Assembly: GCF_030816015.1 (NCBI RefSeq)
Contig: NZ_JAUSXN010000001.1
Coordinates: 3,906,001 to 3,970,000 of the forward strand
Length of the DNA stretch: 64,000 bases
Direction: 5' to 3'
Origin: Pedobacter sp. W3I1
GTDB taxonomy: Bacteria > Bacteroidota > Bacteroidia > Sphingobacteriales > Sphingobacteriaceae
Both the position numbers and the translations under genes were made by a program. Below the pieces are notes generated by a model. The model was given only the letters and a program-made list of their open reading frames with translations, was not told the origin of the DNA and did not search any database. Below, piece by piece: positions 32,667 through 35,913 of this stretch (positions within the stretch are counted from its first letter, which is position 1; the number at the start of each line of letters is the position of its first letter).

Positions 32667-32700
32667 ATAAAAAACCCTGAAGAAACAATCTTCAGGGTTT
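32667..32700 (-). terminator. Terminator of the sigma factor-protease operon
   Basis: Minus strand: AAACCCTGAAGA pairs with TCTTCAGGGTTT around a 5-nt loop, followed by a run of T. It lies 32 bp beyond the protease stop codon. Confidence 0.9.
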
Positions 32701-32731: not shown

Positions 32732-33826
32732 TTAGTATGCTTTTATCATAAATACATAATCTTGTATTTTTTCGATCTGTTTGGTGCGTTTTAAACCAGA
32801 CAGTAAGCTCTTTTTGTTGGCAGAAAGTTTATTTACGCCTAGTGAATCCTGGGGAATAGCCCTCATTGCCTCTAAAATATATTTTGATTTAATGGCAAAG
32901 GCTGCGCCTTCTGTCTGATCTGGCTTGCCACTAATAATACCTACCAAATTTCCGTTATTATCTAAAACCGGGCCACCGCTATTACCTGGATTAACTGAAA
33001 TAGCCACCTGATACTGAGTGGTATCTCCAATAAAACCATTTTTAGAACTCACGTACCCCTCTCCAAGTACAGCATCATCTTTTGGATAACCCAAAGTGTA
33101 TACAATTTCACCAATGTTACTTGTATTTCTTTTAATGGTATAAGGAATAGAAGATAAGTTACTGAAGTGTTTATCGTTTATTTTAAGAATTGCAATATCA
33201 TTTTGAGGATCGGTATAAACCGATTTTACCTTAAACGATTCTCCTTTACTGTTTTGTACATATAAAGAATCAGCGCCATTAATAATATGCAGGTTAGTTA
33301 AAATGTAGCCATTTGTAGAAATGGCAAAACCAGTACCACCAAAACTATTCTGAGTATTTGGCTTACCAGCAATTGTATTATTATGTTTAATATTTCTGAT
33401 TAAGCTATTTTGTGTTTTAATAGCATTATTCACCTGATTACTTAACTGTCTGTAACGCTCTGCCTGTTGAGTATTATGCTGAATAGAGTAAATAGAAACC
33501 AGAGAGAGTACAACGAAAGATGCTGCAACTGCAATTGCAGATTTATGTTTACGCCACAATTGAACCACACGTGAAGGATGAGGCCTAAGTGTAGAAGCCA
33601 AACTTTCCACATCAATTTCTGAATGAATATGATTCAACTGTTCTTTTAAGCGCAACTGTTCAGCAAATGTCTCCATAGATGCTAAAAAGAACTTATGCGA
33701 AACTACTTTATGATCTACTGTGGCATCATTAAGACGTAGCTGTTCAAAAGCTTCAGTTTCCTGTGCATTAAGTTTACCTAAAAGATAATCTTCAATAATT
33801 GCATCTAACTCCAAATCGTTTCTCAT
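32732..33826 (-). CDS. Membrane-anchored trypsin-like serine protease with anti-sigma-like N-terminus
   Basis: 364 aa. Residues 1-95 form a cytoplasmic, acidic-helical domain (EDYLLGKLNAQETEAFEQLR) like the N-terminus of Bacteroidota anti-sigma factors, without a zinc motif. One membrane span follows at about 96-114 (SAIAVAASFVVLSLV). After a linker (115-160) comes an HtrA/S1C-type protease with a full triad: His180 (LTNLHIING), Asp210 (PQNDIAILKI) and Ser283 (NPGNSGGPV). No PDZ domain is present. It starts 6 bp after the ECF sigma gene. I infer that the N-terminus holds the sigma factor and the periplasmic protease senses or processes envelope stress; neither is proven. Confidence 0.88.
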   Translation of the reverse strand: MRNDLELDAIIEDYLLGKLNAQETEAFEQLRLNDATVDHKVVSHKFFLASMETFAEQLRLKEQLNHIHSEIDVESLASTLRPHPSRVVQLWRKHKSAIAVAASFVVLSLVSIYSIQHNTQQAERYRQLSNQVNNAIKTQNSLIRNIKHNNTIAGKPNTQNSFGGTGFAISTNGYILTNLHIINGADSLYVQNSKGESFKVKSVYTDPQNDIAILKINDKHFSNLSSIPYTIKRNTSNIGEIVYTLGYPKDDAVLGEGYVSSKNGFIGDTTQYQVAISVNPGNSGGPVLDNNGNLVGIISGKPDQTEGAAFAIKSKYILEAMRAIPQDSLGVNKLSANKKSLLSGLKRTKQIEKIQDYVFMIKAY

Positions 33827-33832
33827 TTCAAA

Positions 33833-34399
33833 TTATGGTTGAAAAAATATTTTCTTTAACCTTTGCAGGCATTTATATTTCTGCGTTTTTGCATTGTCGG
33901 TATTGGTATAGCCGAACTTTTCGCAGATATCCTGCATGGATAAATTGTGGATATAAAAATCCTGAATAATGGTTTTACAAGGTTCACCCAGATGATCGAG
34001 TGCCGATTGCATTTTCACAAAAGCAGCATCTTTCTCTTCGTGGTGTTCTACATCTTCCTCAACAGCAAATACATCTTCATAATCGGTAATACTACCGGTC
34101 TTTTTACTGTTTAGGCTAAGTTTCTTTAGCCAAATACGCCTGCAAACCGAATAAATATAGGTTTTCAGTTTGCTGCTGAGCTCAAAATTACCTGCCTTAA
34201 TTTTGTTATATAAAATTATTATGCCTTCCTGGTAAACATCTTTTGCATCATCTTCATCACCATTATTATTTAGGATAAACTGCAAAACCATTGCATAATA
34301 AGCCTTGTATAACTTGTTAAGTGTATCTTCTGAGTTATTTAGAATACCTAAAATAACCTCTCTATCTGTTGGAACTGAACTCTTTAAACTGTTATTCAC
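33833..34399 (-). CDS. ECF-type RNA polymerase sigma factor
   Basis: 188 aa, GTG start at 34399 (no better ATG upstream; the next in-frame Met is inside region 2). Region 2 is LYKAYYAMVLQFILNNNGDEDDAKDVYQEGIIILYNKI; region 4 is HNLSMQDICEKFGYTNTDNA followed by KYKCLQRLKKIF. It should direct RNA polymerase to a dedicated promoter class. Its own upstream region carries the same GGGTTACC / TATTAA motif found before the four divergent lipoprotein genes, suggesting self-activation. Operon partner is the anchored protease. Confidence 0.9.
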   Translation of the reverse strand: MNNSLKSSVPTDREVILGILNNSEDTLNKLYKAYYAMVLQFILNNNGDEDDAKDVYQEGIIILYNKIKAGNFELSSKLKTYIYSVCRRIWLKKLSLNSKKTGSITDYEDVFAVEEDVEHHEEKDAAFVKMQSALDHLGEPCKTIIQDFYIHNLSMQDICEKFGYTNTDNAKTQKYKCLQRLKKIFFQP

Positions 34400-34402
34400 T
34401 AG

Positions 34403-34431
34403 TTAATACATTTTTCTATAAATAGTAACCC
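34403..34431 (-). promoter_or_regulatory. Second, weaker match to the ECF promoter motif
   Basis: Minus strand GGGTTACT, 15 nt, TATTAA. The TATTAA box ends only 4 bp before the GTG start, so transcription from it would begin inside the gene. Possibly a remnant or an alternative start is used. Confidence 0.3.
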
Positions 34432-34470
34432 AATATTAGACAAAAAAATATTTATAGCTGCTATAATTGC

Positions 34471-34500
34471 TTAATACAAACTTAAAGTAAACGGTAACCC
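34471..34500 (-). promoter_or_regulatory. Predicted ECF promoter of the sigma factor operon
   Basis: Minus strand GGGTTACC (34500-34493), 16 nt, TATTAA (34476-34471). Same two boxes as before the four lipoprotein genes. Leader would be about 65 nt. Confidence 0.65.
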
Positions 34501-34541
34501 AAAGCTCAAAAAAAAATATTTTACCTTTTTTGTAAATTGTT

Positions 34542-34570
34542 GGGTTACCTTTTTACCTTTGCGGCATTAA
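34542..34570 (+). promoter_or_regulatory. Predicted ECF promoter of lipoprotein gene 1
   Basis: GGGTTACC (34542-34549), 15 nt, CATTAA (34565-34570); 30 bp before the ATG. A TACCTTTG housekeeping-like box at 34554-34561 overlaps the spacer, so a second promoter is possible. Confidence 0.65.
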
Positions 34571-34600
34571 CAAGAAATTAATTACTTAAAAAATTCAAAA

Positions 34601-34819
34601 ATGAAAAATGCATTCAAATTAGGCTTTTTAGCTTTAGCTTTATCTTTATCAGTTGTTGCTTGTAACTCAGAAAAAAAAGCTGAAGGTGCTGATACAACTT
34701 TAACTGATTCTTCTACTATCGTTACTGATACTACTGCAAAAGATACTTCAGTTAAAGATTCTACAGTAAAAGATACAACTGTAAAAACTACTACAACTAA
34801 AGAAGAAGTTAAACACTAG
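34601..34819 (+). CDS. Small Thr/Asp/Lys-rich lipoprotein, tandem paralogue 1
   Basis: 72 aa. Signal MKNAFKLGFLALALSLSVVAC gives lipid-anchored Cys21. The mature part is a low-complexity chain of DTT/DST/VKDTTVK units ending KEEVKH; no Gly-rich or aromatic residues, so probably an extended, disordered surface or periplasmic tether. The signal peptide is almost identical in all four copies. Function unknown. Own predicted ECF promoter and own terminator. Confidence 0.85.
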   Translation: MKNAFKLGFLALALSLSVVACNSEKKAEGADTTLTDSSTIVTDTTAKDTSVKDSTVKDTTVKTTTTKEEVKH

Positions 34820-34836
34820 TTTAATTTTACTCATAT

Positions 34837-34872
34837 AAAAGGCTCCTGATTTAGCATTAGGAGCCTTTTTTA
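34837..34872 (+). terminator. Terminator after lipoprotein gene 1
   Basis: AAAAGGCTCCT pairs with AGGAGCCTTTT around an 11-nt loop, followed by a T run. Confidence 0.9.
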
Positions 34873-34889
34873 TTTTTTTTAATTTATTT

Positions 34890-34918
34890 GGGTTACCTTT
34901 TCGGGTTACCGGTATTAA
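34890..34918 (+). promoter_or_regulatory. Predicted ECF promoter of lipoprotein gene 2
   Basis: GGGTTACC (34890-34897), 15 nt, TATTAA (34913-34918); 40 bp before the ATG. The spacer itself contains a second GGGTTACC. Confidence 0.7.
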
Positions 34919-34958
34919 GGGTAAATTAATTAATTAATTACTTAAAAAATACTCAAAA

Positions 34959-35177
34959 ATGAAAAATGCATTCAAATTAGGCTTTTTAGCTTTAGCTTTA
35001 TCTTTATCAGTTGTTGCTTGTAACTCAGAAAAAAAAGCTGAAGGTACTGATACAACAGCTACAGATTCTTCAACTATCGTTACTGATACTACTGCAAAAG
35101 ACACTACAGTTAAAGATTCTACAGTAAAAGATACTACTGTAAAAACTACTACTGAAAAAACTGAAGTTAAACACTAG
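34959..35177 (+). CDS. Small Thr/Asp/Lys-rich lipoprotein, tandem paralogue 2
   Basis: 72 aa; differs from copy 1 at a few positions only (for example TDTTATDSS instead of ADTTLTDSS, and TEKTEVKH at the end). Lipobox SVVAC, Cys21. Same DTTVKDST-type repeats. The high DNA identity of the signal region with copies 1 and 3 points to recent tandem duplication. Confidence 0.85.
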   Translation: MKNAFKLGFLALALSLSVVACNSEKKAEGTDTTATDSSTIVTDTTAKDTTVKDSTVKDTTVKTTTEKTEVKH

Positions 35178-35194
35178 TCTAACTTACTTATAAG

Positions 35195-35232
35195 AAATGC
35201 CTTTGGAATTCATTTTTCAAAGGCATTTTTAT
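35195..35232 (+). terminator. Terminator after lipoprotein gene 2
   Basis: AAATGCCTTTG pairs with CAAAGGCATTT, followed by T residues. Its stem sequence is unrelated to the terminators of the other copies. Confidence 0.88.
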
Positions 35233-35248
35233 TTTCTAAAAAAACAAG

Positions 35249-35277
35249 AGGTTACCTTTTCACATTTTGGGTATTAA
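35249..35277 (+). promoter_or_regulatory. Predicted ECF promoter of lipoprotein gene 3
   Basis: AGGTTACC (35249-35256), 15 nt, TATTAA (35272-35277); 32 bp before the ATG. Confidence 0.65.
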
Positions 35278-35309
35278 GGATATATATTAACCCTAAAACA
35301 TATATCAAA

Positions 35310-35528
35310 ATGAAAAATGCATTCAAATTAGGCTTTTTAGCCCTAGCTTTATCTTTATCAGTTGTTGCTTGTAACTCAGAAAAAAAAGCTGATGGCGCTG
35401 ACACAACAGTTACAGATTCTTCAACTATCGTTACTGATACAACTGCTGTTGATACTACAGTAAAAGATTCTACTGTAAAAGACACTACAGTTAAAGCTAC
35501 TACTACAAAAGAAGAAGTAAAACACTAG
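35310..35528 (+). CDS. Small Thr/Asp/Lys-rich lipoprotein, tandem paralogue 3
   Basis: 72 aa; signal and lipobox as in copies 1 and 2. The mature part has DTTAVDTTVKDSTVKDTTVK and ends KEEVKH like copy 1. Flanked by its own predicted ECF promoter and terminator. Confidence 0.85.
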   Translation: MKNAFKLGFLALALSLSVVACNSEKKADGADTTVTDSSTIVTDTTAVDTTVKDSTVKDTTVKATTTKEEVKH

Positions 35529-35548
35529 TTATTTTTGCTAAATAACAC

Positions 35549-35584
35549 CAAAAAGGTCGCGTTTTTACATCGCGACCTTTTTTA
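35549..35584 (+). terminator. Terminator after lipoprotein gene 3
   Basis: AAAAAGGTCGCG pairs with CGCGACCTTTTT around a 9-nt loop, ending in T residues. Confidence 0.92.
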
Positions 35585-35596
35585 TTTAAGAAAATC

Positions 35597-35624
35597 GGGT
35601 TAATTCTTGTCTTTTTTGTATAAA
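35597..35624 (+). promoter_or_regulatory. Degenerate ECF promoter of lipoprotein gene 4
   Basis: GGGTTAAT (35597-35604), 14 nt, TATAAA (35619-35624); 43 bp before the ATG. Weaker match than for copies 1-3. Confidence 0.4.
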
Positions 35625-35667
35625 TTGGTAATTAATTAATTTTTAAAACCAAACAAATTATAAAACA

Positions 35668-35865
35668 ATGAAAAACGCATTCAAAATGGGCTTTTTAGCT
35701 CTGGCTTTATCCCTATCTGTTGTTGCTTGTAAATCAGAAAAAAAAGATGGCGCAACTGATTCATCTAAAGTTGATTCTACAGTTGTAGATACAACTATAA
35801 AAGATACTACAGTTAAAGATACCACCGTTAAAGACACTACAGTAAAAGACACAACTAAAAAATAG
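35668..35865 (+). CDS. Small Thr/Asp/Lys-rich lipoprotein, tandem paralogue 4
   Basis: 65 aa; the most diverged copy. Signal MKNAFKMGFLALALSLSVVAC, then KSEKKDG instead of NSEKKAEG. The tail is four near-perfect repeats of VKDTT ending KK. Its promoter is also the most diverged, so it is probably the oldest duplicate or under different control. Confidence 0.82.
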   Translation: MKNAFKMGFLALALSLSVVACKSEKKDGATDSSKVDSTVVDTTIKDTTVKDTTVKDTTVKDTTKK

Positions 35866-35883
35866 TTTTAGCTATTACTGGAT

Positions 35884-35913
35884 AAAGGCCTTGGAAATTC
35901 TAAGGCCTTTTTT
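35884..35913 (+). terminator. Terminator after lipoprotein gene 4
   Basis: AAAGGCCTT pairs with AAGGCCTTT around an 8-nt loop, with a run of T. Confidence 0.9.

Follow-up and report, generated by a model that had tools for sequence, protein, structure and literature searches.

A circuit that is probably an autoregulated envelope response, run by an extracytoplasmic function (ECF) sigma factor and with small lipoproteins as its output, was identified at positions 32732-35913 of a 64,000-nucleotide (nt) stretch of the Pedobacter sp. W3I1 genome. We call the whole stretch the window; it lies on a single-contig genome of 6.40 Mb. The sigma gene and a gene for a membrane protease are on the minus strand, and four small lipoprotein genes are on the plus strand. 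Genes on both strands are preceded by a two-part box, whose consensus we sharpened to GGGTTACC-N14-GTATTAA. Its conservation in distant relatives, almost letter for letter, strongly suggests that the sigma factor activates its own gene along with those of the lipoproteins, and the response is probably to envelope stress.

A two-part box shared by the sigma and lipoprotein genes

The features of the locus are as follows (coordinates in the window, strand, description).

32672-32700, minus: terminator-like hairpin 3' of the sigma/protease operon
32732-33826, minus: fusion of a putative anti-sigma factor and a DegS-like serine protease, 364 residues (Trypsin_2, PF13365, 86.3 bits)
32852-33346, minus: trypsin/DegS-like protease domain of the fusion, about residues 161-325, presumably periplasmic (Foldseek)
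33482-33541, minus: single transmembrane segment of the fusion, about residues 96-115 (hydrophobic stretch identified by eye, inside predicted helix 86-148)
33587-33826, minus: N-terminal cytoplasmic helical domain of the fusion, putative anti-sigma, residues 1-80 (AlphaFold2 model, weak profile and fold matches)
33833-34399, minus: ECF sigma factor gene, 188 residues, GTG start (TIGR02937; Sigma70_r2, PF04542)
34403-34431, minus: proximal sigma-gene box, GGGTTACT-N14-GTATTAA, ending 3 nt 5' of the sigma GTG
34471-34500, minus: distal sigma-gene box, GGGTTACC-N15-GTATTAA, the sigma-gene site of the initial annotation
34542-34570, plus: lipoprotein 1 box, GGGTTACC-N14-GCATTAA, with embedded TACCTTTG (housekeeping-type -7 element)
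34601-34819, plus: lipoprotein 1, 72 residues (lipobox VVAC read from the translation; NF050142, 40.6 bits)
34837-34869, plus: terminator-like hairpin 3' of lipoprotein 1
34890-34918, plus: lipoprotein 2 box, exact consensus
34959-35177, plus: lipoprotein 2, 72 residues
35193-35230, plus: terminator-like hairpin 3' of lipoprotein 2
35249-35277, plus: lipoprotein 3 box, one mismatch
35310-35528, plus: lipoprotein 3, 72 residues
35597-35624, plus: lipoprotein 4 box, degenerate (three mismatches, gap 13)
35668-35865, plus: lipoprotein 4, 65 residues (NF050142, 35.3 bits)
35884-35910, plus: terminator-like hairpin 3' of lipoprotein 4

The fusion gene lies downstream of the sigma gene, from which it is separated by 6 nt. 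A hairpin after lipoprotein 3 was seen by eye and is not in the list of hairpins produced by the tool.

An initial annotation of this DNA had proposed a promoter shared by the sigma gene and the lipoprotein genes, at five sites. All five are present where it placed them. It missed a sixth, the proximal sigma box, which is the best conserved of all; and its fifth site, before lipoprotein 4, which it described as a one-base variant, is actually three bases away from the sharpened consensus and has a gap of 13. The pattern GGTTACC-N14-17-YATTAA has four matches in the window (34471-34499 on the minus strand; 34543, 34891 and 35250 on the plus strand), compared with 0.06 expected from shuffled sequence. 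The whole-genome scan that the annotation had suggested gave 13 matches to this pattern in 6.4 Mb, four of them at the locus, against five for the reversed-pattern control. A refined pattern that allows GGTTACT gave 11 genome matches, of which five are at the locus (control 2), and exposes the proximal sigma box. A scan of the region for the sigma-70 consensus found no excess (14 found, 15.2 expected). A chance origin of the boxes is ruled out by the shuffles, the reversed controls and the conservation described below.

Lipoproteins 1-3 are near-identical duplicates. Because the lipoprotein genes are tandem duplicates, their boxes alone are weak evidence; on the sequences compared here, the independent evidence for the box is the sigma box, an unlinked gene for a DUF4349 lipoprotein, and the loci of distant genera.

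Conservation in the genus, family and phylum

The protease was found in 143 of 145 genomes of the genus. We took 80 of these 143 loci, spread over the range of identity, which with the window gave a set of 81; three are truncated by contig ends. The sigma and protease genes are in the same order and on the same strand in all 81, and they adjoin on one strand in the window and in all 113 of the family loci that were fetched. The sigma GTG is at the aligned first codon in 80/81 genus loci. The proximal sigma box, with at most one mismatch and a gap of 14, is present in 81/81, while the distal box (34-200 nt upstream) is present in 49/81 genus loci, 0/33 loci from other genera of the family and 0/16 further loci. 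For the lipoproteins, only open reading frames (ORFs) starting MKN or MNMKN were counted in the genus, other lipobox-like ORFs having been excluded beforehand. Counted in this way there are one to five copies per locus (none in locus L093), and 184 of 200 genes are preceded by a box with no more than two mismatches. Among the 195 lipoprotein sites with up to three mismatches, 192 have a gap of 14; dinucleotide shuffles never gave fewer than three mismatches. The lipoprotein 4 box was compared in nine relatives: two have one mismatch and a gap of 14 (L050, L067), three have two mismatches, and four have three.

The protease, used as a marker for the module, is present in 298 of 300 genomes of an order-level draw, all 300 of which came from one family. 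In the 33 loci from other genera of this family the proximal box is always present with at most two mismatches, and across genus and family together the gap at the sigma-proximal site is 14 in 113/114 loci. A box with up to two mismatches precedes 38 of 50 family lipoprotein candidates. Of the 12 candidates without one, two (both in L132) resemble spurious ORFs and the others resemble lipoproteins (for example in L139, L144, L159 and L161).

Sixteen further loci comprise four metagenome-assembled genomes titled Sphingobacteriaceae, Sphingobacteriales or Sphingobacterium, and twelve others mostly titled Chitinophagaceae or Niabella. In the twelve more distant loci the identity is 33-39% for the protease and 43-51% for the sigma factor. 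In all 16 there is a box on the minus strand where sigma starts, and a small lipoprotein gene is preceded by another on the plus strand. In a draw of 158 genomes from the phylum, 14 have a protein matching over at least residues 85-361, and four more match the protease domain only. A similar draw of 156 Bacteroidota genomes yielded an exact lipoprotein-type box in eight, which make up 8/14 genomes with the module and 0/142 others; there were no matches to the reversed control. The search of relatives, which the initial annotation had suggested as a check, shows synteny and box both retained in the genus, in the family and beyond.

Genome G288, which is a single contig, has no protease, sigma factor, box or lipoprotein at the thresholds used, consistent with joint loss of the module and the box. 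Genome G087 was considered as a second case and is uninformative, as its lipoprotein is at a contig edge and the locus may fall in an assembly gap. We also note that G133 is incomplete and that G092 holds the module in pieces.

Alignment of 129 sigma-proximal sites shows GGGTTAC and GTAT to be invariant, with most spacer positions variable. For 217 lipoprotein boxes the consensus extends to GGGTTACCTTTT. The sites in these profiles were preselected at two mismatches, and so the percentages are biased upward. The fixed spacing, variable spacer, synteny, restriction of the box to genomes with the module, and unlinked lipoprotein sites together favour the shared ECF-type promoter that was originally proposed.

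Specificity of the box and unlinked candidate targets

The box was then sought in 130 loci (717 kb), allowing up to two mismatches. There are 453 matches, of which 244 are no more than 130 nt before a lipoprotein gene, 171 are before a sigma gene (121 proximal and 50 distal) and 38 are elsewhere; reading each box backwards in the same loci gave two matches. The possibility raised by the initial annotation, that the motif might be equally common before unrelated genes, does not hold in these loci, where most boxes precede sigma or lipoprotein genes. Among the 38 matches elsewhere, nine are sigma-proximal boxes in the L255-L266 group, where our script placed the sigma start too far upstream; 14 come from lineages whose intergenic regions are long, and lie 238-326 nt upstream of sigma; and 15 (seven plus, eight minus) are at other places, mostly in coding sequence. 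In L086-L112 the extra minus-strand box at this distance is followed by a repeat-like sequence ...AAACCCGATTGTAGCG...AAAGCGGGACTA...TTTGCTTTT... with no clear ORF.

In 24 whole genomes, 54 of 70 exact matches lie within 3.5 kb of the sigma gene, as do 22 of 77 matches with one mismatch. The 16 exact matches that are unlinked to sigma comprise eight before a gene for a lipoprotein with a DUF4349 domain (PF14257, 49.2 bits, cut-off 27.7), six before PG1828-like lipoproteins, one before a 450-residue membrane protein, and one with no visible ORF. The DUF4349 lipoprotein is the recurrent unlinked gene. One example is L172 (G000:C1:1002102-1003119, with its box match at G000:C1:1002229). A protein search covered 21 genus genomes, of which 18 were among the 24 scanned, and 10 others; it found this gene in 19 and 4 of them, respectively. 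Each of the 19 genus orthologs has a box with up to two mismatches within 260 nt (gap 14 in 16 and 15 in three), as do two of the four outside the genus (both with gap 15); the other two have five and six mismatches. We note that three of the DUF4349 matches (L275, L280 and L281, in G082, G037 and G126) were reported with one in-frame stop inside the match.

The sequences therefore point to a regulon that is wider than the locus, including the DUF4349 lipoprotein and perhaps a few others. Less certain candidate targets are membrane proteins of 100-103 residues (L186/L187 and L189/L190, each fetched in two genomes), the 450-residue membrane protein (L175 and L192, fetched in two genomes), and an unlinked 96-residue protein (MxQKTYxKTKDYCKVKF...) in three f2 genomes (L307, L313, L314). 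The description of the regulon as private, made in the initial annotation, consequently needs to be dropped: the DUF4349 gene carries the box, and in genomes of genus g2 unlinked lipoprotein genes keep it.

The sigma factor and the downstream fusion protein

Residues 26-183 of the 188-residue sigma factor match TIGR02937 (sigma70-ECF) with 80.3 bits (cut-off 42.9), which identifies it as an ECF sigma factor. It also matches Sigma70_r2 (PF04542) with 33.2 bits (cut-off 24). There is no separate Pfam match to region 4, and a phmmer search against PDB sequences gave no match at E 0.001.

The downstream protein was read as one ORF spanning both of its parts in the window and in all 129 relatives' loci, with a length of 356-379 residues. 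The model, built with 61 sequences, has a mean predicted local distance difference test (pLDDT) score of 83.9 and a predicted TM-score of 0.55. Residues 2-80 form helices and are followed by a long helix (86-148) in which the hydrophobic stretch lies; a linker of low confidence (144-161) then leads to a trypsin domain. A101 and A102, in the transmembrane stretch, are invariant. When the N-terminal domain was modelled alone using AlphaFold2, it gave a pLDDT of 89.9, with helices at 2-15, 21-33, 35-70 and 73-80.

The best Foldseek matches of the protease domain are to DegS, many of them to a delta-PDZ construct, with E values down to 5.8e-13. The domain has the trypsin fold and His-Asp-Ser triad of the HtrA/DegS proteases, and the triad (H180, D210, S283) is invariant in 61/61 aligned sequences. 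The cut-off of the curated DegS profile is not reached (79.5 vs 422.95 bits). No PDZ domain was matched in Pfam at E values up to 1, and only about 40 residues follow the protease domain. The end of the protease, residues 345-364 (32735-32794, minus), of QDYVFMVKVY type, is strongly conserved and partly predicted as a strand. The initial annotation had described a membrane protease that holds the sigma factor. The protease domain stands, and the simple form of this description is not supported, since a putative anti-sigma domain, a transmembrane helix and an HtrA/DegS-type protease domain are joined in the one protein.

Proposed mechanism

We infer the following working model. The sigma factor would guide RNA polymerase to a -35 element GGGTTAC(C) and a -10 element GTATTAA, separated by 14 bases (15 after the GGGTTAC core). 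This promoter would serve the operon of the sigma factor and the anti-sigma/protease, the divergent small lipoprotein genes, and at least one unlinked gene, that of the DUF4349 lipoprotein. The sigma factor would be kept at the inner membrane by binding to the N-terminal domain of the fusion protein; the periplasmic half of this protein is predicted to be a DegS-like serine protease. An envelope signal would make the protease domain active, and the anti-sigma would be cleaved either by itself or by a partner molecule; following this first cut, a general intramembrane protease would probably cleave it again. The freed sigma factor would then produce more lipoprotein, and more of its own operon.

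A more specific form of this model is that the downstream protein is a self-releasing anti-sigma, in which a DegS-type sensor protease and its own substrate form one chain. In response to an envelope signal this chain would cut its own linker (for example in the low-confidence stretch 144-161) and set the sigma factor free; the switch, whose GTATTAA box all but touches the start codon of sigma, would control envelope lipoproteins. The same proposal takes the module to be core to the Sphingobacteriaceae and common to the Chitinophagaceae. We put this forward tentatively, as a possibility that we would not yet back.

Evidence against the circuit, and alternative explanations

A number of observations weigh against the autoregulated circuit. 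Locus L093 has neither a lipoprotein nor a plus-strand box near sigma, and six family loci (four g2, two g12) lack any plus-strand box over the 700 nt next to sigma. The two g12 loci are L165 and L168. In three of the g2 genomes the box is kept at a distance, which speaks for the circuit: G264 and G276 each have two exact boxes before PG1828-type lipoproteins more than 1.5 Mb from sigma, and G145 has one distant PG1828-type lipoprotein box with a gap of 15. In the 24 genomes, the 71 unlinked matches with no or one mismatch do not exceed the reversed control (96). A lone unlinked match therefore means little, and only recurrence at orthologous genes counts.

The assignment of the N-terminal domain is a further such point. 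Its best PDB match is the anti-sigma factor RslA (in complex with sigma-L, 3hug), and the match is weak (Foldseek E 2.9, Z 5.7, root-mean-square deviation 5.5 over 63 residues). Profile evidence is also weak: zf-HC2 (PF13490) is matched in 21/60 members at E values up to 0.1, with a best value of 1.6e-4, and anti-sigma families are matched in 5/60 members. The full-length fusion from the window matches an anti-sigma family with E 6.5e-4, far under the cut-off, while its N-terminal domain alone has no anti-sigma match in Pfam or NCBIfam. Against the sequences of solved structures the domain gave matches at chance level (best E 0.032). Because the fold and profile matches are weak, with no profile match for the window's domain alone, we refer to it as a putative anti-sigma domain.

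Two of the lipoprotein genes also fit the circuit less well. The box of lipoprotein 4 is poor in the window, and lipoprotein 1 may not depend on the ECF sigma factor, since a housekeeping-type element sits in its spacer and its -10 (GCATTAA) differs from the consensus. The element, TAnnTTTG, is the -7 consensus of sigma-A in Flavobacterium according to a passage of PMC9723704. It lies inside the box in 63/107 first copies and 0/115 later copies (genus and family, where first means the first copy with a box); counted by gene order within the genus, it is in 55/75 first copies and 4/109 later ones, and 52 of these 55 first copies have C as the second base of the -10 (GCATTAA). These observations could mean that the lipoproteins are transcribed mainly by the housekeeping sigma factor, with the ECF box playing a minor part. 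The lack of the element in the later copies, and likewise in 44/107 first copies, makes this rather unlikely as a general account; its absence from later copies fits a mixed model, in which copy 1 may be basal and the others inducible. A housekeeping promoter alone is retained only as a partial account for copy 1. The output of four lipoproteins described in the initial annotation therefore holds for the sharing of the box, and not as four equal outputs, given the housekeeping-type element of copy 1 and the degenerate box of copy 4.

The boxes could alternatively be the operator and promoter of another regulator, either a different sigma factor or a protein that binds the near-palindrome GGTTACC, with the ECF gene as just one of its targets. 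The link from the sigma factor to the box is indeed drawn from sequence comparison. However, a promoter would be expected to have a second half at a fixed distance, as GTATTAA is at the sigma-proximal sites; the lipoprotein form of the box was found, in the phylum draw, only in genomes that have the sigma/protease module, and G288, which lacks the module, has no box. Autoregulation is moreover common among ECF sigma factors. We consider this explanation to be unlikely.

The position of the proximal sigma box presents a different difficulty for the circuit. Only 2-3 nt separate the end of the -10 box from the aligned first sigma codon in 108 of the 114 loci of genus and family, so that the sigma mRNA must be either leaderless or missing its start codon. 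Transcription should begin at or just past the start codon, which would be awkward for translation of sigma. It could therefore be argued that the transcript from the proximal box starts inside the sigma frame and that only the anti-sigma/protease is translated from it, making the feedback negative rather than positive. A start 6-7 nt past the -10 would leave out the GTG, and the next ATG, GTG or TTG in the window's sigma frame comes no earlier than codon 37. Against this, inspection by eye of five more distant loci (L255, L257, L260, L262, L264) found an in-frame GTG 10-14 nt after the box, corresponding to a short leader, and leaderless mRNAs do exist in flavobacteria, with a figure of 5.5% in an excerpt of PMC9723704. 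Negative feedback of this kind seems to us quite improbable.

Finally, that the boxes are similar only as a relic of tandem gene duplication, as the near-identity of lipoproteins 1-3 might suggest, is scarcely credible as a full explanation and is refuted by the sites at sigma, at DUF4349 and in distant genera: spacer positions vary while both boxes stay, and the unrelated sigma and DUF4349 genes are preceded by the box as well, as are the lipoproteins of other genera and of Chitinophagaceae.

Comparison with known systems

The proposed autoregulated circuit resembles the sigma-E/RseA/DegS system of E. coli, an envelope-stress pathway with a promoter of GGAAC type. Both have an ECF sigma factor, a membrane-spanning anti-sigma factor (putative in Pedobacter), a DegS-type periplasmic serine protease (presumably periplasmic in Pedobacter) and, as proposed for Pedobacter, autoregulation and an envelope output. 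The stepwise proteolysis that releases sigma in E. coli has a proposed counterpart in the working model above. They differ in that RseA and DegS are separate proteins in E. coli, whereas in Pedobacter the putative anti-sigma and the protease are in one polypeptide; in that the Pedobacter protease has no detected PDZ domain and the output is of small lipoproteins; and in the promoter, which in Pedobacter is GGGTTACC-N14-GTATTAA. Because two of its proteins are a single chain, in which no PDZ domain was found, we place the circuit outside the sigma-E/RseA/DegS system, despite its similar working. DegS is termed the site-1 protease in a passage of PMC8103513.

In anti-sigma factors of the RsgI and FecR types, which act on ECF sigma factors and are fused to sensor domains, one transmembrane protein likewise joins an anti-sigma (putative in our case) to a periplasmic sensing domain; in Pedobacter, unlike these, the periplasmic domain appears from its sequence to be an active HtrA-type protease. 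SM6 of Flavobacterium psychrophilum, as described in PMC9723704, is another Bacteroidota ECF promoter whose targets include a sigma/anti-sigma operon. Its -10 is CGT and its targets belong to type IX secretion, in contrast to the GTATTAA and lipoprotein targets found here.

A further likeness is to SigH (PG1827) and PG1828 of Porphyromonas gingivalis, where an ECF gene is numbered beside a lipoprotein of NF050142, the family weakly matched by the window copies and named after PG1828. The adjacency of PG1827 and PG1828 is taken from their locus numbers only, and that this might be the same system is a conjecture suggested by the family names alone. PMC4324044 links PG1827 with survival in oxygen and with oxidative stress.

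No description of the circuit was found in the open-licence literature searched, a scope that does not cover the main ECF classification. Little is known of the ECF promoters and anti-sigma factors of Bacteroidota: according to PMC7406223, a class I anti-sigma domain lies in the neighbourhood of only 6% of the ECFs in this phylum. The module described here brings together a specific promoter, a few targets and a fused putative anti-sigma/protease, and promoter, sensor and output are all testable in a culturable genus. If the proposal is true, an anti-sigma and a DegS-like protease in one chain would represent a shorter route to the logic of E. coli sigma-E.

The lipoprotein family

Window copies 1 and 4 match the PG1828-family profile NF050142 with the scores given in the feature list, where the cut-off is 50 bits, and all four copies are below 50 in the genome search. 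The top PG1828-family matches in family f4 (L293-L296) have neither a gene for this sigma factor nor a box within the fetched flanks of 1.5 kb, and therefore the family extends beyond the circuit. One box-bearing lipoprotein from G264 and one from G276 pass the NF050142 cut-off, each with 62.3 bits.

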